Source: Diphasiastrum complanatum (Eukaryota; Streptophyta; Lycopodiopsida; Lycopodiales; Lycopodiaceae). Taken from it: 64,000 nucleotides of DNA. The stretch is taken from the NCBI GenBank assembly GCA_029204225.1, contig CM055111.1, positions 17,159,019 to 17,223,018 on the forward strand. The letters are read 5' to 3'. Shown in pieces: positions 3,607 to 63,586 of the stretch. The translations under genes were made by a program, and so were the position numbers. The notes beneath the pieces were generated by a model, which had not been told where the DNA came from, ran no database searches, and saw only the letters and a list, made by a program, of their open reading frames with translations. How positions within the stretch are numbered: the first letter of the stretch is position 1; every line of letters begins with the position of its first letter.

Positions 3607-3663
<57 letters not shown>

Positions 3664-5460: not shown

Positions 5461-5540
5461 TGGAACTAAATGTCACAAGAACACATGTAGCAAATATCCA
5501 CGCACAACACAAAGGAAGAGTCACGAGAAAAAAAAATTCT

Positions 5541-5990: not shown

Positions 5991-6639
5991 ATTTTTTTAA
6001 CCCAAAAAAAGAAACATTTGGCGCAAACCAAAATGTGGTTTGCTCCTAAACTAGAGGGCGACTTCCTTTTTCTGTTGTGTGTGAGAGAGAAAAAGAGAGT
6101 ATAGATGGGAGTGATGATGAGATGGGGATGAATGTGAGTGAGAAGATTGATAGTGTTTTGGTTCATTGATGGATGTTAGTAGTATGTGTTTTGTGATCAT
6201 ATGTTTAAAGATCTTTTTTGTTTGTGATGTAGGCTTGGATATGAAAAATGAAAAAAGAGCTTTCATTGCAAAGGATTGAAAGATCAAGTGCATGCAAAAG
6301 GAAAAGCAAAGATTAAAAACAATGGAGATACAATAGTAAAGGTAAATTCACATTTATTTTGATTCATTTGCCATGCAAATCATGTGCTAAAATAGATACA
6401 TTACATTGAATTCATCAATAGATACATTTGCATTCCATAGATGTGCAATAAATAGACTATACATTGCATTGAATACATCAATAAATACATTTGCATTCAA
6501 TAGATGCACATTCAATAGACTATTAGGTATATATTGTTATTGATATTGACATCAATTGCACTTTATTTGTTATTTGAATATGAGAGTGTAATTTTTCTTG
6601 CAAATTTATTCTTACAATGACATTTGATTGGAATTATGA

Positions 6640-7200
6640 ATTCTAGGGAAGTTATCGTATCTCCACATGATTTGGAGAAAGAAAAAAAATTGAGCTCTAT
6701 CACAGAAAAAAGGAACAAGCAAGACTAAAGTACAATGAACAACTATTGATTGGTTCATCTTCATGCTCTTCCATCAGTCGACGTAGACCGCCTATTGATC
6801 CATCACATGTATGTATATTGATTTATGTCATAATTTTTTTATTTGTAATAGTGATGTACTCCGAGTTGGTTGAGGATTGTGATATAGTATATTGCTCTTT
6901 GGAAAGCCAAGACAACACTCCATCACAAATAAGGTTGCAAATGCACTAAATGTATAAGGACTATTTTGTCAATTTTTGTCACTTGTTCCAAATTTGTCAA
7001 TTTTCACTTAAATGACACTGAAAGAATTTGTGCGATTTGCGATTGGATTATTGGACCAATTCCAACCAGAATATGATGAGTAGATACCATGTACATGCGC
7101 ACAATGCAAAAGCCTTTGGATTCGGACAAGGAGGATTGTCAACGATCATATTTGGCTAATGGAGTGCACACAGAGAATCCAACAGTATGAGAGATAAACT
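6640..7200 (+). pseudogene. Exon fragments incl. a possible Transpos_assoc-like zinc module (left copy)
   Basis: A basic exon-like frame near 6,700-6,810 (LKYNEQLLIGSSSCSSISRR) runs into a GTATGT donor-like site. Near 7,018-7,190 the frame reads LKEFVRFAIGLLDQF, one stop, then IPCTCAQCKS and VNDHIW. The Cys-x-Cys-x2-Cys ... His layout recalls the transposase-associated domain at the N-terminus of plant CACTA proteins. It is on the strand opposite to the DUF4216 remnant, so the two are not one collinear gene. The assignment is tentative. Confidence 0.4.
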
Positions 7201-7301
7201 CTTTAAAGTTTTTTTTGGAAATGCTTTAATCTTTGACCCTTATGACACTTCAAGGTTTGGCCAATAAATATTGATCGATAGGATGAGTGCCACGATACTT
7301 T

Positions 7302-7467
7302 GAAGTTAATCTCTCACTTGCTTCTAAAAGGGAAAATCCAAACAGAATAATTAGATGAAGTTAATCTCTCACTTGCTTCTAAAAGGAAAAATCCAAATAG
7401 AATGATTAGATGAAGTTAATCTCTCACTTGCTTCTAAAAGAAAAAAATCCAAATGGAATGATTAGAT
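7302..7467. repeat. Three tandem 55-bp repeats (left copy)
   Basis: Units begin at 7,302, 7,357 and 7,412 with GAAGTTAATCTCTCACTTGC and end near TTAGATG. Three units are also present at the same place in the right copy (52,145-52,310), so the array predates the duplication. No coding function is seen. Confidence 0.95.
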
Positions 7468-7518
7468 GTAGTTTATCTTGATTTCCATATCCAATCACCC
7501 ATAATAGACTCATTCACG

Positions 7519-7522
<4 letters not shown>

Positions 7523-7562
<40 letters not shown>
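7523..7562. repeat. (GA)n microsatellite
   Basis: A GA tract of about 40 bases. The equivalent tract in the right copy (52,374-52,432) is longer and runs into a GT tract. Between here and 8,224 I see no gene, only a short (GT)n at 8,005-8,020. Confidence 0.95.
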
Positions 7563-7564
<2 letters not shown>

Positions 7565-8223
7565 TTCAAGAAAGCCGGCATTCTTAAGGAATGGAACCAG
7601 CATCTTTTTCCCAAAACCCACAACTACAAAATTTTGCAAGATATTTTACGTGATAAATTTGAGATTTTATAGAGGAAAACTGGCAAGTAGAAGCATATCT
7701 CCTGTCAGTAGCCGGAATACTCCTTAAGGTATGGGAATTTTAAGGGAAACCTCAAAAAAAATTTCCGAACACTGGAGAGAGAGTTAAATGTAACCTACAC
7801 TCCCAATTCTAGGAAGGTGTGAAGCCATTGTTTTCTTCTGTTAAAGGCATGGTTCAAATGCTTTTGTTGGAAGATGAGTTCCACAAAAAAGCCCAAACCC
7901 CACAGGGAGGGAGCATGTGGTGACATTTTGGAGTAGGATATAATTGTGTGGTTCGGGAGTTTTGATTAGCACTCTGTAATGTTCTCATGAAGTGTGTTTA
8001 GGGTGTGTGTGTGTGTGTGTTTCATGCTATCCGTTTATGATTTGTGTTATATATTAATTTATGTTTCATGCTTGTGTTATATATTAATTCAATCCATGTC
8101 TCCAAATCTCTTTAACATTCTTACCACCCAACCACACCTATCCTAGAAGTTGCACATGAGTCCTCCACGATACTCCACGTGGATTCCACAAACTCGACCA
8201 CCCTTTAAAAAGGAGAACACGTC

Positions 8224-8929
8224 TTGAACCTTACTATGACTAGTTTGAAAGATAATTGCAAATTTCTGCACACTGTTGATGTGTCAAAAGACATTCTAGG
8301 TTCTTTGTCTTATCTTCCTCTTCCACCTAGCTTGCAAACATTAATAAAAACTTTCATTAGGAGTAGATATTCATGTTGGCCACTCCAATCACCATTACCA
8401 TTTAATGGAACACCATTTACGTATTGGGGTCGAATGTATAGGATCATGCCTAGTGAACACTTTCCTGAGGCTGGTTTGGGCCTTTTTGCATTGATAGTAT
8501 TGAGGTCCCTCTAAATAGTGTTGTGACATTGATGCCATATGCAAGACATCAATACAACTGGGGTGATTGGCATGCTTTGTGTCATCACCAATGGAGGATG
8601 CAAGCATATGGCTTGAATTCAAATGCTTGTTCTTTAGAGGAGCAACGCATGCAAGGAGGCAACATCTCAAGGGCAAATCGTACATACATTAATGGACATC
8701 AAGATGTGCATGAAAACATTGCTGCATATATAAATAGTTCCATTGGCCACCCTCTATTGACAAATTGTGCACCAATGGAAAAGAAGAATGTTTTACTAGG
8801 AATGTAAAGGGTACTTATGTAATGGTCTGTGCCACTAAATCTATTAGGTTTGGGAAGGAATTGTTCATCAAGTATAGTTTCAACCATCCTTTACCCAAAT
8901 GTTTGCAAAAGATAATAAGTCAAATGTGA
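8224..8929 (+). pseudogene. SET-domain protein pseudogene (left copy)
   Basis: Two adjacent frames together read as a SET (protein lysine methyltransferase) domain. The first (to about 8,514) has WGRMYRIMPSEHFPEAGLGL, matching the AGLGLFA start of SET. The second has LMPYARHQYNWGDWH and HENIAAYINS, equivalent to the GNIARFINHS motif, and the end carries a (K)ELFIKYSF-like GEELF.Y motif. One missing base near 8,497 separates the two frames and is shared with the right copy. A 13-base deletion near 8,768, private to this copy, removes the NCDFEE part and shifts frame again. The tyrosine of the C-terminal motif is present. Function is lost. The family is sure, the subfamily unknown. Confidence 0.75.
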
Positions 8930-9290
8930 AGATTTAAATTTTTGTTGATATGCAGAGATGTATAATCCATGCATCTTGTATTTGGTTTGTGTCATTAAAT
9001 ATGTCAAATATTAGGAGCATTATTCGTCATTTGCCTAGATGTTTACATAAGATAAGAAGTGAAAGCTCATGAATGTGAAATCCATAAATATGTAAATATG
9101 TAGAAGCGTGCAATTCTTTGAGTTCATTGAATATTAACAAGTTGAAATGAAAAATGGTCTAATAGATACATTGATATGTTCCTACTTTTTAAACAAAGAG
9201 GTAATTTATATTCATATGCAACATTTATCAAGTATTGGAAGGAAATGTTTATCAAGCATTGTTTCAACCTACTTCTTGTTATTTTGGTAC

Positions 9291-10000
9291 ATAGGATTCT
9301 TCATCCTCATTTAGCGTTGGAGACAATAATCCTCATAATGGTCGATGTAGACGACGAATGCAATACAACGGTCCTCATATAAAGCAATTACCTCGTCGTC
9401 TACATCAAGGCTTAAAAGAGATGATGGAAATTGATGAGCACATTAATCAAGAGACCAATGCATCTGAATCTAGCTCATCTAGATCTACTTCTTCACAAAC
9501 AAGTTCCAACGATGAAAATGAGCTTCCAATGGTCAAGTTAAATGGAGCACTAAGAAGTATATATGGCTTACATCCTCAATATCGGAGTATTGTAGAAAAC
9601 TATCTACAAACTACTTCTCTCCAGCCTGGGTTTCGATTAAGGGAAACTATGGAATATGTTTTAAAGTACGAGCAACGAGAACAAAGGCTTAAGCTGGAAG
9701 CTGAAAGGAAAGAAGAACAATCTAGGTGGTTTGAGAAAATGAACATGCGAATTCAGAACCTAGTGAGTGTATATACTAAAGCATCAACAGATCGACAATG
9801 GGAATGAAAGGGAAGAAACTTATGAAGATGAAGATGATACCAACAATGAGTCTAATGAGCAAAGTGACAACGACGAAGCGGATGAGCGAAGCAAGGACAA
9901 TGATTCGGATGAGCAAAGTGACAATGAAAGTCAAGTCCCAGGTCTAGAAATAGTTGCAGACAACAAAAGTATCAAAAGATTTGCATTGGTATTAAGGTTC
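9291..10000 (+). pseudogene. Acidic, coiled-coil reading frame of unknown family (left copy)
   Basis: The frame opens at a splice-acceptor-like ACATAG (9,290) with DSSSSFSVGDNNPHNGRCRR and continues for about 170 codons to 9,807. It holds a Ser-rich stretch, then LNGALRSIYGLHPQYRS, then a charged helix (EQREQRLKLEAERKEEQSRW). A second frame from 9,767 is Asp/Glu/Ser-rich with repeats of DEQSDN. In the right copy the acidic frame continues for another 120 codons. Here it is cut by the 1.44-kb loss at 9,970. It follows the SET domain in the same orientation and could have been part of the same gene. Confidence 0.5.
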
Positions 10001-10338
10001 AAAGTGGCATTTGGCCTTGACTTGCATTTATGTTTGACGGTTCCATTCTTTGAGTTGCCAGTCCTCTTCCAAGTGACATACTAGAGCAATCTTGGGTCAA
10101 AATTGACCGTTCCTAAAAGGCAAAGAGATTTTTCTATTAGTCATTATATTGATAAGTACATTAAAATGTTGGATTGTTCTACTATCAAAATTGATTCATC
10201 TGAATAATCGATCCTTAATCTAGATCTATTCATTATCCAGTTTTGTAGTTTTATTCGTGTTTCTACACAATCTATAGAAATACTCGAGAATCGCTCAATA
10301 GATGGCTCCGACATATCAGATAAGGCTAAAAGCATGGT

Positions 10339-11049
10339 TTGGTGGTACAACATAGACTTTCAATGACACTACCTTTTTTGGGTATAAATCTATTTATGTT
10401 TTCTATTGGAGGAGAGATCCATTGTAGTCAGCTTGGACATGTTATGAAATTCTGCCTTGAGCAACAGAAAGGCACAACTCAATTGATTGAGATGTCAGGT
10501 AAAGAAAATCTTAAGCTAGAGATCAATATAGTTAATTGTGAGTGCGATTGTTCTCTTAGTACTACCTCATTCTTGCCAAATGATCTATTTCATTTGAAGG
10601 GCACTGTAAATGGACATGAAGTTAGTATTTTAGTGGACAGTGGATCTACTCATAATTTTATTAACTCTAGTCTTGTGCAGAAACTCGGCCTCAAAACTGA
10701 AGTCAGTAATCATAGATATCGAGTATATCTAGCTTCAGGTGCAGAGTTGGAAATGTGAGATGCTAAAGTTCCAAGGCTCCCAATTTGGATCCAAGATTAT
10801 AGAGAGTTTGAGAAGCATGTTCTCTCCTTTCAGGAGGATAAAGAAATAGTTACATTGTTTGGAGACAATTTTGTACATCCATCTGGGATGAGTTCATTTG
10901 TTAATGTGATGGAAATTTTTTATTCACATTATGAAGTTTATTCTTTATTTGCCAAGCCAATTTTGGATTTATCTAAAATGCATCTAAGTAGTTTTGAATT
11001 GTCAAAAATTCTAAACTCGGTAGACTTAGATCAGGAGCAAAAATTCTAA
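10339..11049 (+). pseudogene. Ty3/gypsy gag zinc-knuckle and protease fragment (left copy)
   Basis: A decayed knuckle (IHCSQLGHVMKFC) is followed by HLKGTVNGHEVSILVDSGST, the retropepsin active site with flap-side residues typical of gypsy polyproteins, and then HNFINSSLVQKLGL. A stop at 10,756 and an 86-base deletion near 10,805 remove the DLILG-x-x-WL-like block that the right copy keeps. The tail (10,855-11,049) ends in a TAA before an LTR-like stretch. Confidence 0.8.
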
Positions 11050-11210
11050 ACACCCGACTCCACTACATTCAAATAAGTCACAACTGTATCAATTAATCAA
11101 CCTTTAAGTGCTATCCTCTTGGGGTTCGACATCAAATAATACACAGTTCTATCATATCTCTATTAATATATCATGACATATGCCAATTTTGGCGCCGTTG
11201 TCGGAGATAG
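11050..11210 (+). mobile_element. LTR end and tRNA-Asp-type primer-binding site (left copy)
   Basis: TGGCGCCGTTGTCGGAGA at 11,190-11,207 closely matches the widely used plant Ty3/gypsy primer-binding site complementary to the 3' end of tRNA-Asp. The bases before it (CTTGGGGTTCGACATC and following) resemble the end of such an LTR. The internal domain expected after a PBS is missing: the next recognisable sequence is copia RNase H. This is therefore a truncated element joined to another. Confidence 0.65.
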
Positions 11211-11261
11211 CCAAATAAAGTTGATACAAACTGACAAATCCACCATTTCTAGTGTATGTTA

Positions 11262-11439
11262 GACAGAGTTGCTTGACTAGCACAAACACTTCCTACAACA
11301 ATCTATTGTGACAATCAAAGCACAATAGCGTTATCTCTCAATCCAAGATTTGACTCTCAAAGGAAACATATTGAAAACATGTATCATTACTTTAGAGAGA
11401 AAGTGCATAACAAGGAAGTAGCATTGGTTTTTTGCAAAA
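11262..11439 (+). pseudogene. Copia RNase H fragment, part 1 (left copy)
   Basis: The plus frame reads TIYCDNQSTIALSLNPRF and then RKHIENMYHYFREKVHNKEV, the classic copia RNase H region with the DNQSAI and HI(D/E)..YHF.RE motifs. The frame is interrupted at 11,440 by a TGTTAG-starting LTR and resumes at 12,242. Confidence 0.85.
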
Positions 11440-12241
11440 TGTTAGCATCTATGCTAACACTACAAAAAACAAAAAAAGAGAAATAAAACTTTGTGGCATG
11501 TATTTTGTAAGTTCATGTATGAGTGTGTGTTAATAAATTTCCATCATGGCATGTGTTTTGTAAGCCCATGAGTAAAAGCATAAATAATAATAAAAAAGCT
11601 TAACCTTAGAGTTAGAACTGACTTAGGAAACCTAAGATTAGAAATATGTTGTCTTAAGTTTTTCTAAGTTCATAAGTTTTGAGGTTCTAAATCCTAAGAA
11701 GTTCTAGAAAGGCTACAAATAGATTAGTCCCATACGTTAGTGGATACTTATGGAAGACCCTCCTTGCCATAAAAGGAGAGGTATTTGCCTTGTAAATAAC
11801 ACTTTTGAGATTATGCTAATCTCTCTTGAGATTATCTTGCTATTTCACTTGTGTTCCCATTGGAAGGTGCATAGCTTGAGGGAAGGTGCTCAGGCCTCCT
11901 CTTGCCTCCTTTCATTGGTTCTTTTATTGTGGCATGTTTATTTATTGATGTTTAGTTTAGCCGCAATCTATCATTTTAATCCCTTTTAATTTAGGATCTA
12001 GCTTAATCACCTTGTTAGTTGGGGAAGCCTTAGTAAGGTTTTGTTTCTTGTCCTCTTAGTTAGTTTCATTTCTATTTCGAGCACTAGTTGGATAAGCCTT
12101 AGTGCTTCCATCATTGTTTTCTATTTTCGCATTTCCGTTTGAAGCTTGGTAGAAACTTAGAAAGTGGACGATCCTCTCTATAATACACCACATCGTGAGT
12201 AGATCTAGCCAAACATTCACAGATCAGATTTAATTCCAACA
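11440..12241. mobile_element. Solo LTR inserted in copia RNase H (left copy)
   Basis: About 802 bases begin TGTTAG and end CCAACA, the TG...CA ends of an LTR. They lie exactly between two halves of a collinear copia RNase H frame. No internal domain is present, so it looks like a solo LTR left by LTR-LTR recombination. Flanking bases (CAAAA before, GCAGA after) are not a clean target duplication. The right copy has the same insertion at 58,111-58,923. The short ORF at 11,750-11,989 lies inside it and is not a gene. Confidence 0.75.
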
Positions 12242-12440
12242 GCAGAACAAACTACATGGCAGCAGATTACTTCACAAAGGCTCTATCCAAGGAGCAACAT
12301 CTCAAATTTAATGATATGTTAAATCTGAAGGTGACTCAGGCCGACAATTTGGAGTCGGCCGACATATCTGAGGCAGCCAACAATTCAGACCTTAATATTT
12401 TTCACCTTTGCAAATTTTTGTGTCTTAACCATTTCTAGGC
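12242..12440 (+). pseudogene. Copia RNase H C-terminus, part 2 (left copy)
   Basis: The frame reads TNYMAADYFTKALSKEQHLK, matching the ADIFTKAL motif close to the end of copia polyproteins. It continues into a low-complexity tail and stops at 12,436. From 12,440 to 12,620 the DNA has several imperfect repeats built on GGCACCTTCGG, and up to 12,950 I see no gene. Confidence 0.8.
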
Positions 12441-12952
12441 ACCTTCACCCTTTTTGCGCCTTCGGGATTTTTGCACCTTAACCGTTGTAAGGCACCTTCG
12501 TATTTTTATGCCTCCACTTTTTGGGGCACCTTCGGGATGTGCATGCCTTCACTGTTCAAAGGCACTTTCGGATTTTTCGGTTTTTTTCAACAGTGGCAGA
12601 CCGACGTCGCCAACTTATCATAAACCCTAAAAATAACTGGACCACTAAATAACCCAAGGGCGGTTACCCACTTTGTACATATACAAAGACTGGCATAAAT
12701 AGCATTCAATGATTGTAAGATATTTTTTGAAGACACTTGTATATATAAACTAGCTAAATCTGGCTATGCACATGTTGCTTTTAACATTATTAGAGTTTCT
12801 GTTGCTAGCGGTATCACTTTCAACAAGCTGATATTTCAAGCCATTGTACTCACTGTTGATATTAATCAGAGTGCAATCTTCTGTCTCACTACTGTATTGT
12901 TCATTTGCGCAATTTTGAATGAATGATCCATTTTGAATATTTCTGCTGCTCA

Positions 12953-14290
12953 CTATTGCATTTCTGCTCCTACACACCTACGCTCAAAGCTTCGAGCTTC
13001 TGTTGCATGTCCTCTCACAACATGCACGAATTTACCAGGTGCAAGTTTAATTAGCTCTGTTGAATCTGGTAAAATAATATCTTCCATCATATTGGCCTTC
13101 GTATGGCCATGAATTTTGAGCATGGTTGTCTCCACAGATTTATTCGTGTCGTCAACTTGGGGTTTATTACCAAATTCTTGTTCGGATTCGTTAGATTTGT
13201 CAGATTCATCGTCAGCATCATGATCATAATCTTCAAAATTCTTGTCAGCAACTATTGGTTCTTTAAAAGAAATATTCGCTTCAGTAATGCAGACGTCGAA
13301 AAATTCTTCTTCATCATCCGATAAATCATTATTCTCATAGCATTCAAAATATTTAACTTCGATATATGAATTAGTATAAAATATATTGAGTGCATAAGAA
13401 AAATCCTTAGAGGTAATGGACATTGGAGTTTCTCCTTGATATCTGTCTCAACTCCAAGTTATAATTTGTTCTACTACCTTTCCACAATTATTAGTTTTGG
13501 GAGTTTGGAATCTTAGTTCTCTGGACTTCCATGTACACTTGCATTAGATTAATAAAGCCAAGGCCATCCAATCAGCACAACATAAGAGGGCAAACCGAGT
13601 GGTTTGATAACAATAAAGTTCATCGTAAAAGGCTTGGATTATATATATATAGTGATGTCCTTTAATTCACCAACAAGCTTTCTTCGTGTTGAATTGGCCA
13701 ACTTGATATTTCCTTGAGTTGGTTGAATATCAGTCAAACCTAGGGATGAACAATGTCTTTTGTTATAATATTGACACTCGAACCTGATTTGATTGGCACA
13801 TTTTTGATTAAACATCCAACAATTGTAAAGTCGATTTCTGGTGCACCGAGATCTCCCAAATCAACAAATAGTATGCCAACATCTACTAGAGAAATTCTTT
13901 TTTTCTTTTTAGGAACAGAAAGACCTTTTAATCGTTTGAGATAATAAGTGTTGTCTCCCAACAATTGTTCGTCAAAAGTTATATTGGGACAAAAAGAGAC
14001 AATATCAATTGCAATTATGTTTTCACTTTCGTGATAGGCTTGTCAATCGTGGCATCAAAAAATTTGGTCTTCTTGATTTCACATCCTCTTCCTTGAATGT
14101 GACTTTCTTCTCTACAACAACTGTTTGTAATTTGGAATTGATAATTTCTTTAGCTTCTGCAAAAATATTCTTCGAAAATAGCTTGGTGGCATCATGATCA
14201 TAATTAGGATCATCGTTAAGATCTTCTTTCGTTACGGATTTGTGCGATGATTTCTTCTTCGAGGAATTTCTTTTTTTCTTCGAAGAAACT
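12953..14290 (-). pseudogene. Ty3/gypsy-type protease region, minus strand (left copy)
   Basis: Reading leftward: a Lys/Asp-rich part with IVSF.PNITFDEQLLGD, then KKKKRISLVDVGILFVDLGD, then IDFTIVGCLIKNVPI with SGSSVNI, a retropepsin active site in which Asp is replaced (SGSS for DSGSS or DTGSS). Downstream come remains of the IGWPWL (LGRPWL) motif and an acidic stretch (12,953-13,423). A one-base loss near 13,745, not present in the right copy, breaks the frame after the active site. It is opposite in strand to the gypsy fragment at 10,339. Confidence 0.7.
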
Positions 14291-14299
14291 ATCGAGTCA

Positions 14300-14530
14300 A
14301 GTTTCGAGGAGCCTTAGGTTGATGTCTGCAAGCAGTTGCCTTAGCGAAATCACTTCTTTGGTTGCATTTGTGATAGCCATGTATTCAAATTTCGTTGATG
14401 ATAATGCAACTGAGGTCTGCTTCTAACTGTTCCATGAGATTGGGCCTTGGTTGTATAAAAATACAAATCTAGAAGTTGATTTTATGGTAGCGACATATTC
14501 TGCCTGTGTAGGCTTCAAGGATGTTGGCGG
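14300..14530 (-). pseudogene. Copia RNase H fragment, minus strand (left copy)
   Basis: A degraded copy of the frame that is open at 60,986-61,207 in the right copy: PTQAKYVATIKSTSRFVF, then QKQTSVALSSTKFEYMA and LRQLLADI. It is the SSKKQ...ALSSTEAEY block of copia RNase H. It ends at both sides without further polyprotein. From 14,530 to 14,830 I see no gene. Confidence 0.75.
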
Positions 14531-14832
14531 TTTGGCTTCCTCCGTAGCAGATCATTAGAGAAAATATGGGCCCAAAGAGGGCCCTATAAGAAATGCCATG
14601 TAGGAGAGAGAAAAATAATTATAAAGTAATTATAATATCATTTTCTAACTTATTTACACATCTGCCTGCACTACTTTCCATGTAAATGAATGCACCTTAG
14701 TTTAGTCACATCAAACTCACTGGTGTTTAACCACAGTTAAAATATAATTTTTCAAAATGCTGAAATATTCCCTCCCAATAGTTGGGAACACTCAAAAATT
14801 TGAATTAGGAGTGACATTTCCAAAAAAAGCCT

Positions 14833-16291
14833 ATGCCATCTCTATCTCCAGCAGAGTTGTTACCGCCATCTCGAGTTTTGTTTTTGTCATTATGTTGTTT
14901 GTTACTATACTATTGTACTGATGACAAACTTTATCATCTTCATGTGGATCTGTCACCAAAATATGCTCCGCTCAGGACGAGAAATTCAAAACAACCCAAA
15001 TTGTCAACTTCTGATATGGTCCAATACAGGGAGGAAAAGCTAAAACATGTAGATTTATGGTCATCAGGAACATTGTATCCTATTAGTCCATGTTCATTGT
15101 AGCATCCAGATTTTCATTCGGTGATTCAGTTAATGATCTATGCGAGTCATGGTACAAATGGCCTTTTGGGTTACTGTGAGAATTTGATGCTCTATGGGAA
15201 TGCACATTGAATGCAAAGAATACATTATTTGGAAGAGGAATCGAGGAAAATATCAGAGTGCGAAGAAAAATCTACAAAGATGAAAACTTGTTTGGATAAA
15301 AATGAGATGCTCAAGGAGGAGATCCAAAGGTTGAAATCTTCTTTGCATCATTATACAACTAGTAATGATGAGATAAAAATTGCATTTCAATCCATCCATA
15401 TCTCATTTTTATCTCTTGTTAAAGATATGGATGTGCTCAACAGAAAGGTCCGAAGCAACAAGAAACAAAGACTGGTAAACAAGGATATATGTGATCTATC
15501 ATCCAAAGGAGGTCATAGAAAAAGATGAATCCATTCATTCAAGTAAGTTATAGCTTATTTGGTACTGAAAATTGCTTGAACTTTTTGATTTATTCATAAT
15601 CACTAATTTTGTTATTTATTCATTTCAACTTTCTGTTGATTTGTTTATTATATAGTGCTGTGAATACTATGAGTGTCCTAATTTCTACTGACATTTTCAT
15701 GAGCATTATGTTTGCAATGCAGATCAGCATTGGTTGTTGAAGACCATTTGGCCGATGAGATTTCAATTGGAAACTCACTAGGCTCTATCTTGACTTCTAA
15801 ATCTATGAAATCAATGTTAAATAATAATAAAATGAAAAAGATTAAGGCTTTACTTACTGATAGCATTATGGATGAAGTTGGAAAAATATTAGACACTATA
15901 TTGCTTCAGGGGGCATGTGACTTTTCTAGCATCAGTAGGGAAGCATATGCAACAATGTTTAAGATGATAAAGGAGGCATTTGCACAGGTAAATATTAAAA
16001 AGTTTCCAATCCCACGACCATTTCATCTTTTAAAAAAAAGACATGTTAAACCATGGTATGCAGACAATAGTTGGTAATCCATCTCACATCAATGAAGTGT
16101 ATTGCTCGAAAGGAGAAAGTCTAGCATATAACAATTCCAACAGTTTATTTATTGACATTCAATGGTTTTACAGAAGAATCCGAATTCGTCATAATACAAA
16201 ATGGACGGATTATAAAAAATTTCAAAAAGCATGCAAATTTATACAAGCCAGTAGGCTATACACACACAATAAAATTTTGTATATTAAATAA
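14833..16291 (+). pseudogene. Unrecognised intron-containing gene (left copy, broken)
   Basis: The frame starts MPSLSPAELLPPSRVL with a hydrophobic stretch (LFLSLCCLLLYYC) that could be a signal or membrane anchor. It continues through LYHLHVDLSPKYAPLRTRN and a Lys/Glu-rich coiled coil (15,211-15,528). A GTAAGT donor at 15,543 and a TGCAG acceptor before 15,723 define a 180-base intron that joins the frames. Exon 2 includes SALVVEDHLADEISIGNSLG and FPIPRPF. Faults private to this copy are TAG at about 15,100 where the other copy has CAG, TGA just before the donor, and an A-run frameshift near 16,035. I do not recognise the family. Confidence 0.6.
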
Positions 16292-16540
16292 AAATATTTA
16301 CAAAGTACAATTCAGCAGTATGTAGTCTGCTTCCAATATTTTTTCCAATGAAAGTTACAACTTAGAATCATGCAACAATTTTCTTCTTTCGTATGGATCC
16401 AATAGCTCATAGTTTTCATGCTTACTCAGATCAATAAGTAGCATACACTGCAAAATTAGATGATCTGAGCATGGAATTCACTGCTCCATATCCTAAAATT
16501 TTAACCGCAATAGTTTTCTTTACAAAAATTATTTTATGCA

Positions 16541-17827
16541 CCTTATTTCATAAAATTATGTCCTCCAAGAAAATGAGATAGTGCCTTGATTGCCATAATC
16601 ATAGTTTCACCATGTTGATGAAACTTTAAATGGGCAACACTTATTTCATTATTCTTGAAAGACATTAGATAGTGCCCGAGTGCATGATCTCTTGAAAATT
16701 CTCCCGCAGAAGCTTCCCTCCTCGACGAATTGCGAAATCATCAAGGAAAATTGTTTTCTGAAATGATAAAAAACAAAGTAAGCTCTAGTATGTAATCTGA
16801 CATAACAAATCTACTAGTACTTGATAAGAGACAAAAACTTACGCATTTGGCTTTGTCTTCTCTGATTATTGTCTCTCCATCAATATTATGTCCACCTTTT
16901 GATGTCAATATTGTTGGTGAATAGATAGTTGGCTGTGGAAAACCAAGTTGACTTTGGATTCTAAGAAACTCCTCCTTGGAAGGTAGATCATCTTCTTTGT
17001 TGCACATTTCCTCCACAACCATTTGCAAGCAATCTTTCCCTAAATAAAACTTATCAGTATATACATTGTCAACACCCAGGAGAAGATCATCAGCATCAAA
17101 ATCAATTATATCCAAAAATTCATCAAGCTCTTTGCTCAAAATGCAAAGAGTCTCAGCTTCAGTGAAGCCAAAACGATCCGATATATCCGATATTTTCAAA
17201 AAGGAATTATTATCTATAATATAAGTAGGCAAAGTGATCAAAGATTTATCAGAAAGAGAAAGGGTAGTGGGTGTTCTAGGGCCTATAAAAATAGCCCTAT
17301 TTCGAACAGGATCAAAATCAGAACAATCATCTAAATGAACCCTTGTGTCAATAAAAAAGGTATCTATATCTACAATCTTTGACTTTACCACTAAAAGAAG
17401 TTGTTTTAGAAGTGGAGGGCACAGAGTCCAAATCGTCAGAAATATTTAACAAAAGAAAAAAAACAAAAGCAGACTGAAAATCAACAAATCTACATTTTTT
17501 ATTGTGAATTGGGCACTCATCTACAGACTTGAAATCATTATGTAACTTGGTAAACATTCTATCAAGCTTAGCTTTGTAGATATGCTTGTCGAGTGCCACC
17601 AGGTCCTGATAATGAATCATGTCTTTATTCTGAGACCTGAATAATGGCGTACTGAGCAGGGACTTAAATCTGAGATATATTCCAAAAAATGCCTCCACAC
17701 TAGGGCCCTCAGTTACAGAAGGTAGAATAAAAAGAAAAGGAGAAAAAAGTGATTTGAAATAGTCCAACCTATCAGTATTACCAAATTCATTAAATAAAGA
17801 AAACAAACTGGATTCAAAATTAGACAT
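16541..17827 (-). pseudogene. Unrecognised minus-strand gene beside a tandem promoter array
   Basis: ATG at 17,827 starts MSNFESSLFSLFNEFGNTDR. The frame shifts by one near 17,380 (FSGKVK then SKIVDIDTFF) and continues to a GTAAGT donor at 16,842. After an 85-base intron, exon 2 (from 16,757) reads KTIFLDDFAIRRGGKLLREN and then, in another frame, DHALGHYLMSFKNNEIS to a stop near 16,541. Total would be about 380-400 residues, acidic in the middle. The family is unknown. The 3' part (to 16,991) lies in the duplicated segment and the 5' part does not, so the right copy is truncated. It ends tail-to-tail with the plus-strand gene before it. Confidence 0.55.
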
Positions 17828-19260
17828 TTTAAACAAAAATAATAGAACTGAAGTTTCAAATATCACTCTCAGACGCAAACCCCAAGTCAAACAAGCACGT
17901 CAAGGCAACGTGCGTTCGAGAGAGATGTTCGAAGCTGGAGTATTGGATCCGAGCGCAAGAACAACGAGCAAGAAAGAAAAGGGATACGAAACGCACTTGA
18001 ATGCGATACCGGAGGATGCAATATCAGATCCAGACGCATAATAGTCAACGAGGTGTAACCAGAGGAAGCGGCGCGCTTGAAATCAATATCCAGCAAAGCA
18101 ATCGTAAATTTGCGTGAAAATCCGAACCGAAAAAGACCTATTTATATTAAATTTTTTGCACGTGTGGAGGAGTGGCGAAGGAACATGTGTCGACATGTGA
18201 TTGGCCAAAATAAAGCGTCGTACTTTGAATGATTGATCTGACATCTATCACGTGTGAGAATGACACGCGTCGATAAGGGATTCGTGCACGTGTCTCAGCC
18301 CACGTGTCCCCATAATTGGGTCATCATTATCAGTACGGAATTTCCACATGGTCTAGTCATCTGACGACACGTGTCTTGGCCGTCTTTTCACACATGCAAA
18401 ATTTAGCGAAAATTCATTAAAAAAAGAAAGCAAACTAGATTCAAAATTAGCATTTTAAACAAAAATAACAGAACTGAAGGTCCAAATATCGCTCTCAAGC
18501 GCAAACCCTAGGTCCGACAAGCACGTCAAATCAACGTGCACTCGAGAGAGATATTTGAAGTCCGAGTATCGGATCTGAGCGCAAGGAAAACGAGCAGAAA
18601 CGAAAAGGGTTGCGAGACGTACTCAAATGCGATACCGGACGATGTAGTATTGGATCCAAGCACATATTAGCCAACAAGATGTAATGAGAGCAAGCGGTGC
18701 ATTTGAAATCGATATTCGGCAATGCAATCATGGATTTGCGTGAAAATCCGAGCCCAAAAAGACATATTTATAAAAAGAAATGTGTGGAGGACTGGCGAAG
18801 GAACACGTATCAACTTGTGATTAGCCAAAATAAATGCACCGTACCTAGTATGATTGATCTAACATATGTCACGTGCGTGAATGACACGTGTCGATTAGGG
18901 ATTCGCACACGTGTCTCAGCCCACGTGGCCTCATACTTGACTCATCATTGCTAGTACGGACATTCCACGTGGTCTAATCATCTGACGACACGTGTCTCAG
19001 CCGTCTTTTCACACGTGCAAAAATTTTGTATATATAAGTCCTCGAAATTTTCATTTTTTTTCGCAAAGTTTTCGCTTTTAGCTCCCGATATCGCTCTCAA
19101 CTGCGCTCTTTCATCTTTCAAGCTTCTGCCCTCTCACAGTGCGCTCGAGTCCGATACCGCCTGATGTGCAATATCGCTTTCGAGCGCACATCTCTTTTTT
19201 GCAAACAATCTCTGTAGATCTTGTGTTCGAAACCGATATTCAGTGCTGGTATCGATCTCA
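17806..19260. repeat. Tandem array of ~610-bp units (two full, one partial)
   Basis: Unit 1 (about 17,806-18,420) and unit 2 (about 18,421-19,040) align along their length, both starting near AACAAACTGGATTCAAAATT-like sequence. The region 19,041-19,260 aligns with the start of the units, for example the GATACCG...GATGT...TAT[C/T]GG blocks at 18,003, 18,630 and 19,155. A short motif near TATYGGATCYRAGCGCA recurs several times per unit. The array forms the leader and upstream region of both flanking genes. The short minus-strand ORFs in units 1 and 2 (17,887-18,096, 18,531-18,731) are similar to each other, as expected of repeat units. Confidence 0.85.
18120..19040. promoter_or_regulatory. Divergent G-box-rich promoter region
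   Basis: Twelve CACGTG hexamers lie at 18,159, 18,249, 18,287, 18,301, 18,368, 18,870, 18,885, 18,908, 18,922, 18,966, 18,989 and 19,013. Three are GACACGTGTC palindromes. G-boxes of this kind bind plant bZIP and bHLH factors. TATA-like boxes point both ways: TATATATAAG at 19,029-19,038 toward the H3-like frame, and AATATAAATA (minus, near 18,138-18,150) with TTTATAAATA (minus, near 18,764-18,775) toward the minus-strand gene. Activity is inferred, not shown. Confidence 0.55.
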
Positions 19261-19344
19261 AGCGCCCTTTCATCGCAAAGTTTTTTGTTTTGATCCACTT
19301 TTGTTTTGTTCAAACTTCTTTCTATTAATTTTCTTCTTCCGAGA

Positions 19345-19893
19345 ATGATGGCCAGGACCAAATCCACCGCCCGTGCCATCACCACTATACATCCATCCCA
19401 TTCTCGTGTTCCCCCTGGTATTGACTGTAGGTGTGGCAGGAAGCAGGTCTGGCTAAGGGAAACTAGAAAACTCCAGAGATCAACTGAATTGTTGATCCCT
19501 AGAGCTCCTTTCGGCCAATCTGTATGGAATGTCACTCTATCACTTGGCCTGGATGTTTGTTTTGTCGTGACAGCCATGCAGGCCTTGTAGGGTGCTGTAG
19601 ACGATTTTCTGTCCTAGTTTTTTCAAGATACTTGTGTTTTGGCAGTGCATGGTAAGCGTGTCACCATCATGCCAAAGGATTTCATCATTCTCAAAAGGCT
19701 TCGGGACAGATATTCTGGTCTACATGTTGATAATCCCAGCACCTCTAGAGACCTGCCTCTGGATAGAACCAACGTGCCTACTACCTCTAGGAGGAAGAGA
19801 AGCAAGCTGTCCCCAAGAAGGCTGGATCTCGAAGGCCAGCTGCCTCTCTTCCTCCTAGATGTATCCCGGCCAAGAGACCCTGTGTCTTTCTGA
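19345..19893 (+). pseudogene. Histone H3-like pseudogene with C-terminal extension
   Basis: The frame from ATG 19,345 starts MMARTKSTAR, the H3 N-terminus with Lys4 kept but Lys9-Ser10 replaced by Ala-Ile. The tail is about ten residues shorter than H3. The histone fold follows: WLRETRKLQRSTELLI (alpha-N) and, after two in-frame TAG codons (19,588 and 19,615), AVHGKRVTIMPKDF near the H3 C-terminus. The stretch from STELLI to the end of helix 2's start has the same length as in canonical H3, so loop 1 is not lengthened as in CENH3. Where H3 ends, the frame continues about 60 codons (basic, Ser/Arg-rich) to TGA. No intron. Either a decayed divergent H3 variant or a chimeric retrocopy. Confidence 0.8.
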
Positions 19894-20390
19894 GCTCTGA
19901 GTCAGATGTTGCACGAGCTACTTTGCGGAGTAGTAACGAGGAGCTGAGCGACAAACTCAGCAATGCCATTACCAACAAGGAGAGTGCCCAAGCAAATCAA
20001 AGCAGCTTCAGGACCTTGTTGCCTAGCTATAGAATTCTATAGACTCTACTGAGGAAAGGCAACCAAATCTATAAGAAACAAGCCGAAGAGACAATTCTAT
20101 GGCGGATAAGTGCCAAAGTCACATTGGGAGCTTGTGTATCTCATGGGAGATACAAGATCGACCCAACAACTTGGAAAGGTATTTAAGAAAAATTATCCAG
20201 ACCTTCCAACTGCAATATTTGCAACCCTAGATGGTTTCATATGAGAAATTGAAAGAAGAACTGGAAGAGGCTAAGTTTCAATCAAGCCAAATCCAGAATT
20301 TTGAAGATAAAGAACATGTCCAGCGCCAAGACCAGTCTACTCAGATGGATGAGCCAGCTAAAGATACATCAGAGAAGGCCATCTAGACAA
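19790..20390 (+). pseudogene. Basic and coiled-coil tail region following the H3-like frame
   Basis: One base off the H3-like frame, 19,800-20,040 reads a Lys/Arg/Pro-rich stretch and then FLSSESDVARATLRSSNEEL and further helical, charged sequence. After a break, 20,230-20,385 reads VSYEKLKEELEEAKFQSSQI and on to a TAG. If the frameshifts are secondary, the ancestral protein was an H3 fold followed by a long basic and coiled-coil tail. An independent gene fragment fused next to H3 is equally possible. Confidence 0.4.
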
Positions 20391-20399
20391 ATATTGTTT

Positions 20400-22350
20400 T
20401 TAAGCAAATCCAGAAAGATTTAAGATCCAATTTCCTACTCTATCACAGGTTAACCTGAACTCTATATCTGCTTCTGTGTAGTCAATCCCCTCTAGACACA
20501 ACCAAAGTTATAAGAGCCTGCCATATTCATAAAAAATAATAAGATGATGGGTGTCCAGCAATGTTTGTATGGAGTTCCGAGTAAGGCAGTGATGTTGAAT
20601 CTCAACAAAGAGCAGTTTTCTCCTTCAATCCATTTATAATCTATCAAACTTGTTTACACGCTGTACAAAATTGTGCCGAGCCGAATCATAGCCCTACTTA
20701 GCTCTAACTTTAAGATTTTAACAAAACGAGATTAAGAATAATGCACGAGAATAACAGAGAAAATGTCACAAGAGGTTATCCATTGCTTTCATTCCCAGCA
20801 AGACGTGTTCGCGCCAACTAATTGAGTCTTTTTGTGAAGCATACACCTTTTTAGCTTCAAATCTTATGCTACATTTATGCTTTTCTACTACAGGTAAGTT
20901 TTGTACAAGCATGGTTATTTTAAAGTATTTATATTGTTATGGTATGATGATTTTTTTTGGGGTGGAGAGGAGTTTTGCAATGCTCTTCCACCTAGGCATA
21001 AACAAAGGCCCTTCCCTACTGTCAAATAAGCGAGAAGTGTTTTGTTTATTTTAAAATTTCAAAAAATTGTAGTGACAATCTGCACAAATTTTTGTATGAA
21101 AGGGTATGTGCAAAAAAAGTTGTGATATTGTGAACATTGTTATTTCAAAAAATTGCCTTCGATATGGACTCAATAATCTCTTTGTTAATCAAAACTCTAA
21201 TTTCATAATAGGTAGGAAATTGTGGAGAATTTGGGTTACATTTGCAAGTGTGTGTCCTTGGAGAGAGAGACTTCCTTGGGCTTGGGACTTGACACTTTTC
21301 AAGTAAATGTGTGCGAGTTATGTGAGCTTATGATCTGCTAAATCACATATTTTAACAATCTCCAATTGTTGGATATTTTGTTTGTTGAAAATGAATTGCA
21401 CAGTTAGACTCATTTACAAATATATCTTTGTATTGATAATGTTGCATATTATAAAGATGTGAAATAGCATAAATATAACATCATTTGTAACCCTATTCTA
21501 CATTAGTAAGTTGCATTCAAACAACCCAATGAAGTTTGAAATTCTATTCATTAAGCTTGAATTCAAAAAGATGAGCAGACATAGTCGTTTGATTAACAAC
21601 CAACAACCTTAAGATGTCAAGACCTTGACATCACATAGAACAACTCTTGTTAACTTAGTATTGGTTGGTAAATAAACATCTCTTCATTCACATGGAAGCC
21701 TTCTAATCTCAAGTAAACATAATATATTTGCTTACATTTGGTGTATTTTTGTTTTTGTTTTTGATGATTTTCTATTAATCCATGCATTTGCAAGAGGGCT
21801 CTTTTGAAATCATAATATTGTATGTCATCCAAGTTGCATCACTATCAAAACTTTCAATGACATAAAAATCGGACAAACTTGATTTTTGTCTCATCTTGTT
21901 TCGATTACGACCATTACCAACTTGTTGTTTTGATATGTGTGGACTTGGATTAGGTACAATTGCAATGTTGTCATTAGGATCCAAGGAAGCCTCTGGCTCA
22001 TTCTAACATAATGTTTCACTTAGAATTTGCTTCAAACAGGAACAAAGATCATGCTACATAGTAACACAAACAGAAAACACTCTCCACACCAAGCTCACAT
22101 AGCAACTGTATTTCTCAAAATGAAAATACACTATACATATAGTTCATCACTCAAGCAACCCATGCATGACCCAGGTTGTCGTTGACAGGACGCGTGTCCC
22201 ATCGCCTCGTGGCGAGGCCAACTGATCCTTATCTACTGATAGGACCCATAGTACAGTAACACAGTGATTCTACTTTAATTCTAACTGTCTCCCTTAAAGT
22301 AGAGTCTACTTTCTATACAGTCATATACATAGCTTTAAAGTCAACAAACT
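20400..22350. other. Intergenic, no supported gene
   Basis: AT-rich DNA with short unrelated reading frames. A minus frame at 21,775-21,984 (DPNDNIAIVPNPSPHISKQQ) looks protein-like but has no recognised motif. The 22,190-22,350 part, just past the truncated copia RT, may hold LTR remains, but I cannot mark its ends. Confidence 0.4.
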
Positions 22351-25055
22351 TTAAGTACATAGAGTATTCCACTTACATACTGGCACAAAGGTCTCCTCAT
22401 AGTCGATCCCTTTACTTTGTGCATACCCTTTGATCACCAATCTTGCTTTGTGCTTTGCTATACTTCCATCTGCATGGTACTTAGTCCTATATACCCATTT
22501 ACAACCAATGGGTTTCTTGTCAACTGGTGGTTCCACTAAGTCCCATGTGTTATGCTTAGCAATTGACTCCATTCCCTCTCCCATGTCCTTGACCCAATTG
22601 TCATGATCCTTCTCTTCACCATAAGTTGAAGGTTCTTTGCTTTGAATAATGCTAGATAAGAGAGCATAATTTGCTTCATACCTTTCAGGTTGTGTCTTCT
22701 CTCTTGTTGATCTTTGTAGCTCTCCCTGGCTAGATGATCCCGGAAAGTCATCCATGTCACGGTTCTCCAACAATCTCTCAAACCACTTAGGGAGCTTTCT
22801 GTCAGGTGATCGGCTTCCTGGTGAAAATGTATCCCACGGTATATCTTTCTCCTTGCATTTGTCACTTGCAACTTCAATCCTTCTTGCACTAAAGGGTTTG
22901 TCCCTACCTCTCCAACCTGTGTCTTGAGGTTGAGTAGTAGTATCTTGAGGTGTATCCTTGTGTCCATCCCTAGAAAAGTCAATAAATGGATCATCATCAC
23001 TAGGAAAGTCAATAAATGGATCATCATCAGGAGGTATCCTCACTATACCATCTTTCCCACTGGATGTGTCTCTCTTCTCAGCATCCTCGTCTTCATACAT
23101 CTTAGATTCATCAAAGATGACATCACGACTGACATGTATTTTGTTCTCCACTGGATCAAAACATCTATACCCCTTCACACGATTATCATATCCTAGGAAT
23201 ATACACTTGACAGCTTTCACATCAAGCTTACGTCTCCCTTTCTTAGGAATGTGTACAAAGGCCTTACATCCAAAGATTCGCAAGTGGTCTACCTTTGGCT
23301 TCTTCTTCATGAATGCCTCCTCAGGTGTTATCTTTGGTATGGCAATGGTAGGACTTCTATTTTGAAGATAGACCGTGGTACTACATGCTTCTGACCAAAA
23401 ATATTATGGTAGTTTCATCTCAGCTAGCATAGATGTAGCACTTTCCACAATCGTACAATTCTTGCGCCCAGCTACACCATTGAGTGTAGGAGTATGAGCT
23501 TGCATAAATTGTCTTTTGATTCCACATTTATCACAAAGATCATTGAAGTCATTAGACTTATACTCACCTCCACTATCTGATCTTAGAACTTTGATCTTCC
23601 TACCTGTCTGATTTTCGACCAATGCTTTGAAGCTCTTGAAATTGTCAAATGCATCCAATTTCTTCTTCAAGAAGTAAATCCACATCTTACGTGACATATC
23701 ATCAATAAAGGTCATGAAATAGAAGTCTTCATAGGCCCACATAAATCTGTGTGGATCAAATCCAAGATGTTCTTTGCTCTAGCAACACCACCTTTATTGA
23801 ACTTCTCTCGATGCTGCTTCCCATACACACATGATTCACACATCGACTTCAAGTGGTCTTCTATCATAGGCAATCATCTCACCATTTCCAATTTCCTCAT
23901 CAAACTGAGGCTTTCTAAGTTTTGATTAGTAATAACACCAACTGAAAGTAAATTTTTCTTCAAACTTGGTACGTAAAGTACCTCCCTGATCATCCTGCTT
24001 TTGTCATCAAGTAGTTGGATTGAAACGGTGCCTATCACCTTGATCTTGCACACATCACCATTTGCTTGTGAAATGGATGTTCCATTATCCAACACTTTCA
24101 AGCTACTGAACCAATCATTGTTACCTGTCATGTGTCTTGTGACTCCTGAGTCAATGTACCACGCTTGATCATCTTGATTAGATGACAATACTGATATGAA
24201 GATGCTAGAGTCTTCAATCTCACCCTCATCGACAATGCTAGCTTGCTTTGGTTTTCCCTTGTCTGATTCTGCCAGGAATTTCCGACATTCACTCTTCCAA
24301 TGGCCCTTTTTACCGCAATGGAAGCACTTTCCCTTCTTCTTGGTCTTGCTAGAAGAACTCTCATCCTCCTGAGTCTTGGCCAATTGCTGCTTAGAATTCT
24401 TCTTGCCCTTGCCCTTGCCTTATTTTTGGCGTGTCGCAATTGCCTGATCATCAGTGTTTTGAAATCTAGCTTTCACCATTTCTCGTCATTGCTCTTCCTA
24501 CATCAAGATTCTTATGAGCTCGTCAAAGGTTGGCAATCTTTCTCGTGATGTTATTCCACTCACAAACATCTGATAGGGTTCTACAATGCCACACAATGCA
24601 TTATGCACCAGTTCCACATCACATATGTGCTCACCAATAGAGTGCAATTCATCCCTCATTGTCTTGATTCTGGTCATGTACGTCTAAATGTGCTCTCCTT
24701 GCTCCATGCGGGCACTATTCAATTTTGACTTCAGAAACATGATTCTTGATGGATTTGACAATTTGAACTGCTCCTTTAGCACATCCCATGCCTGTCTAGG
24801 TGTAACAACATCACAAATGTGAGTAATGATGTGATTCTTCACTGACAAGTTAATGAAGGTCAAAGCTTTCCTCACCTTGTTATTGAACACTTTGATTTCA
24901 GTTTCATTTGGCGGTCTTCTCTCATCACAAGTGACGACATCCCACACATCCCTCTCCATCAATATGTTTTTCATTTTGAATTTCCACACTACATAGTTGA
25001 AAATCCCGTCCAATTTGCTACTTTCACTCAAAATGGACTCTCCCATGTTTGCCAT
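22351..25055 (-). pseudogene. Ty1/copia gag-protease-integrase-RT(start), minus strand
   Basis: Leftward order: gag from ATG 25,055 (LDGIFNYVVWKFKMKNILME, then a UBN2-type region); zinc knuckle CFHCGKKGHWKSEC near 24,330; protease AWYIDSGVTRHMTGN; GAG-pre-integrase CESCVYGKQHR near 23,830; integrase with HTDLCGPM (another frame) and LRSDSGGEYKSNDF; post-integrase KVDHLRIFGCKAFVHIPKKG; then the RT start KPIGCKWVYRTK and GIDYEETFVPV at 22,360. Frameshifts and stops lie near 24,420, 23,750 and 23,400. The element stops inside RT motif 1, so most RT and all RNase H are missing. DSGV replaces the usual DSGA/DSGC. Confidence 0.9.
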
Positions 25056-61207: not shown

Positions 61208-61521
61208 GGATGTTGGCGGTTTGGCTTCCTCCGTAGCAGATCATTAGAGAAAATATGGGCCCAAAGAGGGCCCTATAAGAAATGCCATGTAGGAGAGAGA
61301 AAATTAATTATAAAGTAATTATAATATCATTTTCTAACTTATTTACACATCTGCCTGCACTACTTTCCATGTAAATGAATGCACCTTAGTTTAGTCACAT
61401 CAAACTCACTGGTGTTTAACCATAGTTAAAATATAATTTTTCAAAATGCTGAAATATTCCCTCCCAATAGTTGGGAACACTCAAAAATTTGAATTAGGAG
61501 TGACATCTCCGAAAAAAGCCT

Positions 61522-62981
61522 ATGCCATCTCTATCTCCAGCAGAGTTGTTAGCGCCATCTCGAGTTTTGTTACTGTCATTATGTTGTTTGTTACTATACT
61601 ATTGTACTGATGACAAAGCTTTATCATCTTCATGTGGATCTGTCACCAAAATATGCTCCGCTCAGGACGAGAAATTCAAAACAACCCAAATTGTCAACTT
61701 TTGATATGATCCAATACAGGGAGGAAAAGCTAAAACATGTAGATTTATGGTCATCAGGAACATTGTATCCTATTGATCCATGTTCATTGCAGCATCCAGA
61801 TTTTCATTCGGTGATTAAGTTAATGATCTATACGTGTCATGGTACAAATGGCCTTTTGGGTTACTGTGAGAATTTGATGCTCTATGGGAATGCACATTTA
61901 ATGCAAAGAATACATTATTTGGAAGGGGAATCAAGGAAAACATCAAAGGAGTGCGAAGAAAAATCTACAAAGATGAAAACTTGTTTGGATAAAAATGAGA
62001 TGCTCAAGGAGGGGATCCAAAGGTTGAAATCTTCTTTGCATCATTATACAACTAGTAATGATGAGATAAAAATTGCATTTCAATCCATCCATATCTCATT
62101 TTTATCTCTTGTTAAAGATATGGATGTGCTCAACAGAAAGGTCCGAAGCAACAAGAAACAAAGACTGGTAAACAAGGATATATGTGATCTATCATCCAAA
62201 GGAGGTCATAGAAAAAGACGAATCCATGCATTCAAGTGAGTTATAGCTTATTTGGTACTGAAAATTGCTTGAACTTTTTGATTTATTCATAATCACTAAT
62301 TTTGTTATTTATTCATTTCAACTTTCTGTTGATTTGTTTATTATATAGTGCTGTTAATACTATGAGTGTCCTAATTTCTACTGACATTTTCATGAGCATT
62401 ATGTTTGCAATGCAGATCAGCATTGGTTGTTGAAGACCATTTGGCCGATGAGATTTCAATTGGAAACTCACTAGGCTCTATCTTGACTTCTAAATCTATG
62501 AAATCAATATTAAATAATAATAAAATGAAAAAGATTAAGGCTTCAGTTACTGATAGCATTATGGATGAAGTTGAAAACATATTAGACACTACATTGCTTC
62601 AGGGGGCATGTGATTTTTCTAGCATCAGTAGGGAAGCATATGCAACAATGTTTAAGATGATAAAGGAGGCATTTGCACAGGTAAATATTAAAAAGTTTCC
62701 AATCCCACGACCATTTCATCCTTTAAAAAAACGAGACATGTTAAACCATGGTATGCAGACAATAGTTGGTAATCCATCTCATATCAATGAAGTGTATTGC
62801 TCGAAAGGAGAAAGTCTATAACAATTCCAATAGTTTATTTATTGACATTCAATGGTTTTACAGAAGAATTCAAATTCGTCATAATACAAAATCGACGGAT
62901 TATAAAAAATTTCAAAAAGCATGCAAATTTATACAAGCCAGTAGGCTATACACACACAATAAAATTTTGTATATTAAATAA
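61522..62981 (+). pseudogene. Unrecognised intron-containing gene (right copy, broken)
   Basis: Same gene as 14,833-16,291. One extra base near 61,617 breaks the N-terminus, but the frame from 61,610 is then open to the GTGAGT donor at 62,236, including QHPDFHSVIKLMIYTCHG where the left copy has a stop. The intron is 62,236-62,415. Exon 2 reads SALVVEDHLADEISIG ... FPIPRPFHPLKKRDMLNHGM and NPSHINEVYCSKGES. A 4-base loss near 62,818 ends it early. Spliced length would exceed 330 residues with a coiled coil in the middle. Confidence 0.6.
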
Positions 62982-63229
62982 AAATATTTACAAAGTACAA
63001 TTCAGCAGTATGTAGTCTGCTTCCGATATTTTTTCCAATGGAAGTTACAACTTAGAATCATGCAACAATTTTCTTCTTTCGTATGGATCCAATAGCTCAT
63101 AGTTTTCATGCTTACTCAGATCAACGTAAGTAGCATACACTACAAAATGGGATGATCTGAGCATGGAATTCACTGGTCCATATCCTAAAATTTTAACCGC
63201 AGTAGTTGTCTTTACAAAAATTATTTTAT

Positions 63230-63586
63230 GCACCTTATTTCATAAAATTATGTCCTCCAAGAAAATGAGACAGTGCCTTGATTGCCATAATCATAGTTTC
63301 ACCATGTTGATGAAACTTTGAATGTGCAACACTTATCTCATTATTCTTGAAGGACGTTAGATAGTGCCCGAGTGCATAATCTCTTGAAAATTCTCCCGCA
63401 GAAGATCTCTAGTACTTGATAAAAGACAAAAACTTACGCATTCAGCTTTGTCTTCTCTGATTATTGTCTCTTCATCAATATTATGTCCACCTTTTGATGT
63501 CAATATTGTTGGTGAATAGACAGTTGGCCGTGGAAAACCAAGTTGACTTTGGATTCTAAGAAACTCCTCCTTGGAAGGTAGATCAT
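63230..63586 (-). pseudogene. 3' part of the unrecognised minus-strand gene (right copy, truncated)
   Basis: Matches 16,541-16,991 except that about 100 bases holding the intron acceptor are missing (junction near 63,404). The 5' half is replaced by unrelated sequence after 63,586. Confidence 0.6.

Follow-up and report, generated by a model that had tools for sequence, protein, structure and literature searches.

The window analyzed here, a stretch of 64,000 nucleotides from Diphasiastrum complanatum, contains a frame that resembles histone H3, has an altered tail and two stop codons, and reads on past the normal end of H3. This raises the question of whether the frame is the remnant of a host H3 variant or belongs to something else. 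In the explanation we prefer, to which we give a probability of roughly 0.6 as a whole (including the role in the element's own chromatin proposed below), the frame is a dead, 3′-truncated gene copy belonging to a mobile element that is dispersed in the genome and bounded by terminal inverted repeats.

H3-like frame of the window

The frame starting at 19345 (MMARTKST...) corresponds to histone H3 along the core, as the sequence-only reading had claimed. The Pfam Histone profile (PF00125; curated cut-off, 26.4 bits) matched the window frame with 56.2 bits (E = 5.4e-15) when the stops were written as X, and it matched L010, a copy from elsewhere in the genome, with 84.4 bits. The two longer pieces between stops also matched this profile individually (E = 2.5e-4 and 4.3e-4), both below the curated cut-off. 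When TAG was read as Q, the best PDB match was H3.1 (8kcb; E = 6.5e-18, residues 33–120). A single-sequence structure prediction of the H3 part of the window gave a mean pLDDT of 34.8 and was discarded. The tail retains ARTK including Lys4 and has Ala-Ile in place of Lys9-Ser10, and the two TAG codons interrupt an H3 part that is free of frameshift to its end; both observations agree with the sequence-only reading. By alignment, both TAG codons are located in what we take to be helix 2. The features of this region are as follows.

19345..19731, plus strand: H3-like domain, dead, with TAG at 19588–19590 (codon 81) and 19615–19617 (codon 90).
19732..19911, plus strand: start of the C-terminal extension (basic linker), thrown out of frame by the loss of one base near 19799.
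19912..20390, plus strand: sequence joined past the breakpoint, outside the element gene, found alongside the H3 part only in the cluster on contig C20 among the scored matches.

The 1-base deletion at ca. 19799/19800 puts the true basic linker (KQAVPKKAGSRRPAASLPPRCIPAKRP...) in another frame, and the window departs from the repeat at ca. 19911–19914. Among the twenty copies described below (L010–L029), only L028, which belongs to the C20 cluster, matches the window beyond this point. The deletion near 19799 is common to L028 and L029, and the break at ca. 19911 is common to L028 only. Since both TAGs occur at glutamine codons, one base was lost near 19799, and the repeat is left at ca. 19911, the window copy is dead. 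The long C-terminal extension described earlier was right in that a genuine basic extension exists in the copies, but it does not form one frame here, and its coiled-coil part is foreign to the gene.

Dispersal in the genome

We searched the 1.745-Gb assembly of the same genome, in which the window occupies C20:17159019–17223018. The candidate counts given here are not equivalent to copy numbers. Using positions 19000–20450 (promoter region and H3) as the query, at least 41 matches were obtained on many contigs, with 40 of 2,514 candidates scored. Thirteen of the 41 rows passed query position 912, all of them on C20 at 17.18–20.14 Mb (12 places). The remaining 28 stopped at 880–912 and were located on C2, C4, C5, C6, C8, C10, C12, C20 (38.5 Mb), C22, C23, and three small contigs. 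The protein query consisting of H3 and the linker gave at least 150 matches (150 of 7,924 candidates scored; E ≤ 3.2e-104 in all 150), and the C-terminal domain query also gave at least 150 (150 of 5,057 candidates scored; E ≤ 1.4e-76 in all 150). Intact paralogues without the stops, which the sequence-only reading had proposed to look for, do exist: 37 of the 150 scored H3 and linker matches had no internal stop by a table count, which ignores frameshifts and in which some rows probably represent duplicate contigs, and complete frames were read in four places.

These results bear on the possibility that the locus is one host gene for an H3 variant that decayed at this site and was multiplied by segmental duplication only. 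The C20 cluster is local (17–20 Mb), and the codon-90 stop was common to all 8 of the 12 cluster places that were read, which speaks for this possibility. However, 28 of the 41 matches lie outside the cluster on many contigs, and fetched copies have defined inverted ends at different flanks, making it very improbable. The earlier suggestion of a decayed lineage-specific variant was correct as to a decayed H3 form, but this form is part of a repeat that is dispersed and has inverted ends, and not a single host gene. An alignment of the extension with an unrelated repeat had been named as evidence against that suggestion; instead, H3 and the true extension were found to be parts of one and the same repeat.

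Duplications were also observed around the element. A stretch of ca. 17–20 kb occurs twice in the window (1–16991 and 43768–63586; 89–97% identity), each time with the left part of the H3 element, and the H3 matches to 19000–20450 also cluster on C20 at 17–20 Mb. L010 and L020 lie on C8 at a distance of ca. 0.9 Mb from each other and share 98% identity over ca. 9.8 kb. Since this identity extends beyond the right end of the element, it probably reflects a recent segmental duplication.

Ends and gene order of the element

Twenty 10-kb copies (L010–L029) were fetched. Eight of them (L010, L011, L014, L015, L016, L018, L022, and L026) align in one piece to the window from ca. 16160 to 19908–19911, four (L012, L017, L020, and L027) match in pieces, and eight match over shorter parts. 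Many copies run on rightward past ca. 19911, and the right end of L010 lies 2.7 kb further. The left end CATTAGAGAAA was found at 14553 of the window and in L020, L021, and L026, at different flanks, while eight copies terminate in the right end TTTCTCTAATG (L010, L012, L018, L020, L021, L026 with one mismatch, L027, and the C10 copy L036). Inverted repeats at independent sites, as in DNA transposons with terminal inverted repeats, were thus present at both ends of L020, L021, and L026 and at the right end of five more. No left end turned up in 700 bp of additional sequence to the left of L010 or in the 12.5 kb of the C10 copy. The two-ended copies are 8,405 bp (L020), 10,047 bp (L026), and 4,288 bp (L021, internally deleted), and as to a target-site duplication, their flanks match (ta/ta) in one of the three and are unlike in the other two. 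The repeat is a dispersed element of unsettled class having inverted ends at different flanks. The ends of the CACTA superfamily begin with CACTA; the ends here begin with CATTAG, and membership in this superfamily was therefore rejected.

From left to right, the element contains a plus-strand gene, a minus-strand gene, two tandem repeats, a TATA-like box, and the H3-fusion gene. The features other than the H3 gene are as follows.

14553..14590, plus strand: left terminal inverted repeat (CATTAGAGAAAATATGGGCCC...), of which 11 bp are perfect and the rest imperfect.
14940..16460 (approximate), plus strand: remnant of the left-hand gene, with a coiled coil followed by a frame at 15712–16077.
16741..17890, minus strand: gene divergent from the H3 gene, also present in L010, L014, L018, L026, and the C10 copy (two frames).
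17783–18404 and 18410–19026, no strand assigned: two tandem repeats of ca. 620 bp upstream of the H3 gene, 82% identical to each other.
19029..19037, plus strand: TATA-like box ca. 315 bp before the H3 start codon, also present in L010, L017, L022, and L027.
61242..63586, plus strand: second copy in the window of the left part of the element, with the H3 part missing.

Between 16159 and 16160, other copies hold ca. 0.5–1.4 kb more, including a CxxC/H stretch. The left-hand plus-strand gene possibly encodes a transposase; no Pfam match above the cut-off was obtained in the frames scanned, and no transposase was recognized in it. The minus-strand gene also had no Pfam match above the cut-off. 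In the tandem repeats of the window, CACGTG occurs 12 times against an expected 0.36, and the tandem repeats of the four copies counted contain 12–16 against an expected 0.35–0.44.

Three other regions of the window gave recognizable frames. A copia-type retrotransposon with gag, integrase, and reverse transcriptase domains lies at 22351–25055 on the minus strand, outside the H3 element. An EamA-transporter-like frame (E = 1.5e-11) was found at 35340–36239 on the minus strand, with a neighboring frame at 36801–37292 that has no Pfam match. A SET-domain frame (53652–54071, plus strand; 23.0 bits, cut-off 22.4) lies in the second duplicated stretch; a link between this frame and the element was considered and then dropped, as the frame is not enclosed by the inverted ends.

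We also considered whether the repeat might be an endogenous DNA virus, or a virus-like element, with an H3 of viral type. Some viruses carry histones, and the medusavirus H3-like protein is 44% identical to H3 (PMC9145170); the present element has genes that fall in no recognized family. On the other hand, no viral hallmark was detected in the frames scanned, which were a part of all frames, apart from the copia domains outside the element. Two further points speak against a virus: the two-ended copies, at 8.4 and 10 kb, have short inverted ends, and the tail still reads ARTKSTAR. We consider this origin improbable. A plasmid collection gave no match, and the H3 query found no relative in viral contigs. 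One viral-contig match to the linker (L001; 58% over 26 residues) was attributed to chance: it lies opposite a minus-strand ORF (4774–5292), and no H3 was present in the nearby frames read.

H3-fusion protein of the better copies

In the better copies, one exon of ca. 370 amino acids encodes an H3 domain followed by a basic linker and then a C-terminal domain. The frame of the C10 copy L036, also found in L034, has 369 amino acids counted from MART, and the majority frame over 21 copies is open for 375 codons. Eight places were picked from the stop-free H3 and linker rows, and complete frames were found in four (L034, L035, L041, and L043), of which L034 and L035 hardly differ from each other. 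Of the others, L042 is frameshifted, L045 carries a stop, and L046 is truncated; L044 was not read. The L017 frame is open for 275 amino acids and is then frameshifted. The protein consists of a 34-residue tail, the H3 core, a linker with KRKQAVPKKAGSRRP, and ca. 165 residues ending in ENK; this last domain had no match in Pfam or PDB.

Of 88 core residues in the majority sequence, 46 agree with canonical H3 (H3.1/H3.3); for L034, the figure is 42 of 84. The majority core keeps R49, R69, R72, R83, F84, H113, K115, R116, T118, K122, D123, and R129, and most residues for contacts to DNA, to H4, and in the H3–H3 four-helix bundle are retained. Of 27 positions for H4 pairing, DNA contact, and the four-helix bundle, 18 were identical in the majority sequence, and the changes were K56R, R63P, K64R, K79G, S86V, C110L, I112V, L126I, and I130L. 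All 21 copies have K4, and one of them (L017) has K9. The only lysines in the majority tail are K4 and K31, and a few copies add lysines at 2 or 30. The protein has neither the canonical modifiable tail with K9, K27, and K36 nor the canonical end at RGERA.

The element protein therefore shares with canonical H3 the histone fold family, the core identity given above, and the ARTK start. It differs in a shorter tail, in K56R and K79G, in ca. 240 extra C-terminal residues, and in being borne by a repeat. With CENH3/CENP-A, it shares a divergent tail and, as in Arabidopsis CENH3, Pro after LLI and Phe after KD; unlike CENH3, it keeps KRVTIMPKD. Identities were 47% and 44% to CENH3/CENP-A and 50% to H3, and loop 1 had the canonical H3 length with no CENH3 insertion. 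A small tree placed three reference histones apart from the element copies with a support of 0.997, by which an origin from CENH3 is not settled. The protein is most likely an element-encoded histone.

Decay of the copies and apparent selection in the H3 domain

At codon 81, 14 of the 21 copies have CAG and 7 have TAG; at codon 90, 10 have CAG, 7 CAA, 3 TAG, and 1 CTG. In the C20 cluster, codon 81 is broken in three of the eight places read (L002, L004, and L005). The usual codon was CAG, CGA, CGG, or TGG at 14 of the 19 stop sites in the 21 copies. This pattern fits deamination of methylated cytosine, and a simple transition excess would give the same; the window copy may accordingly have decayed in part by C-to-T changes at CAG, as expected of methylated DNA.

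The 21 recent copies differed from their majority sequence at 155, 132, and 120 sites of codon positions 1, 2, and 3, respectively. Their nonsynonymous, synonymous, and stop changes were 153:53:4 among singletons and 153:59:13 among shared changes (expected, 0.70:0.26:0.04). Several of these copies are near-duplicates (L014/L015/L019, L024/L025, and L010/L020). The changes among the 21 copies look neutral.

An older copy gave a different result. L030 (1–1587) contains a diverged (ca. 77%) copy of the H3 element, inverted, beside the C6 copy, which is evidence for older subfamilies. Its H3 part (L030 1–420) has a tail without K9 (ARVKSTAHARTY...) and DNASTSRDL after the H3 end, and L030 also matches 17529–17837 of the window, a segment largely within the minus-strand gene, with the order of the two parts preserved. 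Between the H3 part of L030 and eight copies, dN/dS was 0.17–0.22 (dS, 0.83–1.11), whereas pairs among those eight copies gave 0.33–0.74. This comparison covers the H3 part only and uses one older copy, 122 codons, and one stop, and it is in effect one contrast since the eight others are close relatives. The differences between L030 and three copies at codon positions 1, 2, and 3 were 20–22, 23–24, and 44–52, respectively. Based on the low dN/dS of L030 and its third-position excess, set against the neutral changes of the recent copies, it appears that the lineage that moved was under selection in its H3 part and that most copies died later. These results suggest that purifying selection acted on the H3 part during the spread of the element.

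It is also conceivable that an H3 gene was gained by transduplication and is useless cargo. Capture of host genes is known for plant elements (PMC13317346), and the neutral decay of the recent copies speaks for cargo. The diverged copy L030, having a similar altered tail, the same sequence after H3, and the divergent-gene match in the same order, argues against passive capture, as do its dN/dS values and the ca. 370-amino-acid frame complete in four of the eight picked places. We therefore regard such capture as rather unlikely.

Possible role of the element histone

Under the preferred reading of an element-encoded histone, the H3-fusion protein would join nucleosomes with H4 in place of H3. 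It would bring in a tail that lacks the lysines methylated in plants during silencing and that could mostly not carry K9 or K27 methylation. The C-terminal domain may steer the protein to the element, perhaps via the CACGTG-rich repeats, and the element would thereby maintain open chromatin over itself, allowing its expression or transposition. The tail perhaps points to an anti-silencing role. In its full form, this proposal describes a selfish histone, an H3 without K9 and K27 joined to an element-specific targeting domain, which would act on the element's own copies, block H3K9 and H3K27 methylation and the linked DNA methylation, and have been selected across subfamilies. We put it forward tentatively.

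The H3-fusion protein might instead target or package the moving element during transposition, with no opposition to silencing. A C-terminal domain fused to a chromatin protein at many places would suit such a function, and the measurements presented here fit it and an anti-silencing role equally. Nevertheless, the loss of the silencing lysines together with the retention of K4 would be better explained by an effect on histone marks, and a role confined to transposition seems doubtful.

Mobile elements are known to carry anti-silencing proteins. Among these, the VANC proteins of Arabidopsis VANDAL elements (PMC5735166) may offer the nearest working analogy for the element histone, with an accessory gene on a plant element and tandem repeats as suspected targets. 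To our knowledge, VANC is not a histone. Viral histones, such as bracovirus H4 and the medusavirus set (PMC9145170), share the feature of a selfish element with its own histone. In contrast to these, the present element is a plant nuclear repeat, its histone is fused to a domain without matches, and no virus genes were found in the frames scanned. In titles and abstract openings of the open-licence PMC literature, searches on H3 with a C-terminal extension, transposon-carried histones, and anti-silencing returned no such element, nor any cellular mobile element keeping an H3 variant under selection. The word "histone" is absent from the main text of a 2026 review of plant gene capture (PMC13317346).

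The element would make it possible to test directly whether a plant element is protected from silencing simply by an H3 tail on which K9 methylation is impossible. In addition, counts of H3 genes in the Diphasiastrum complanatum genome could be swamped by copies of the element.
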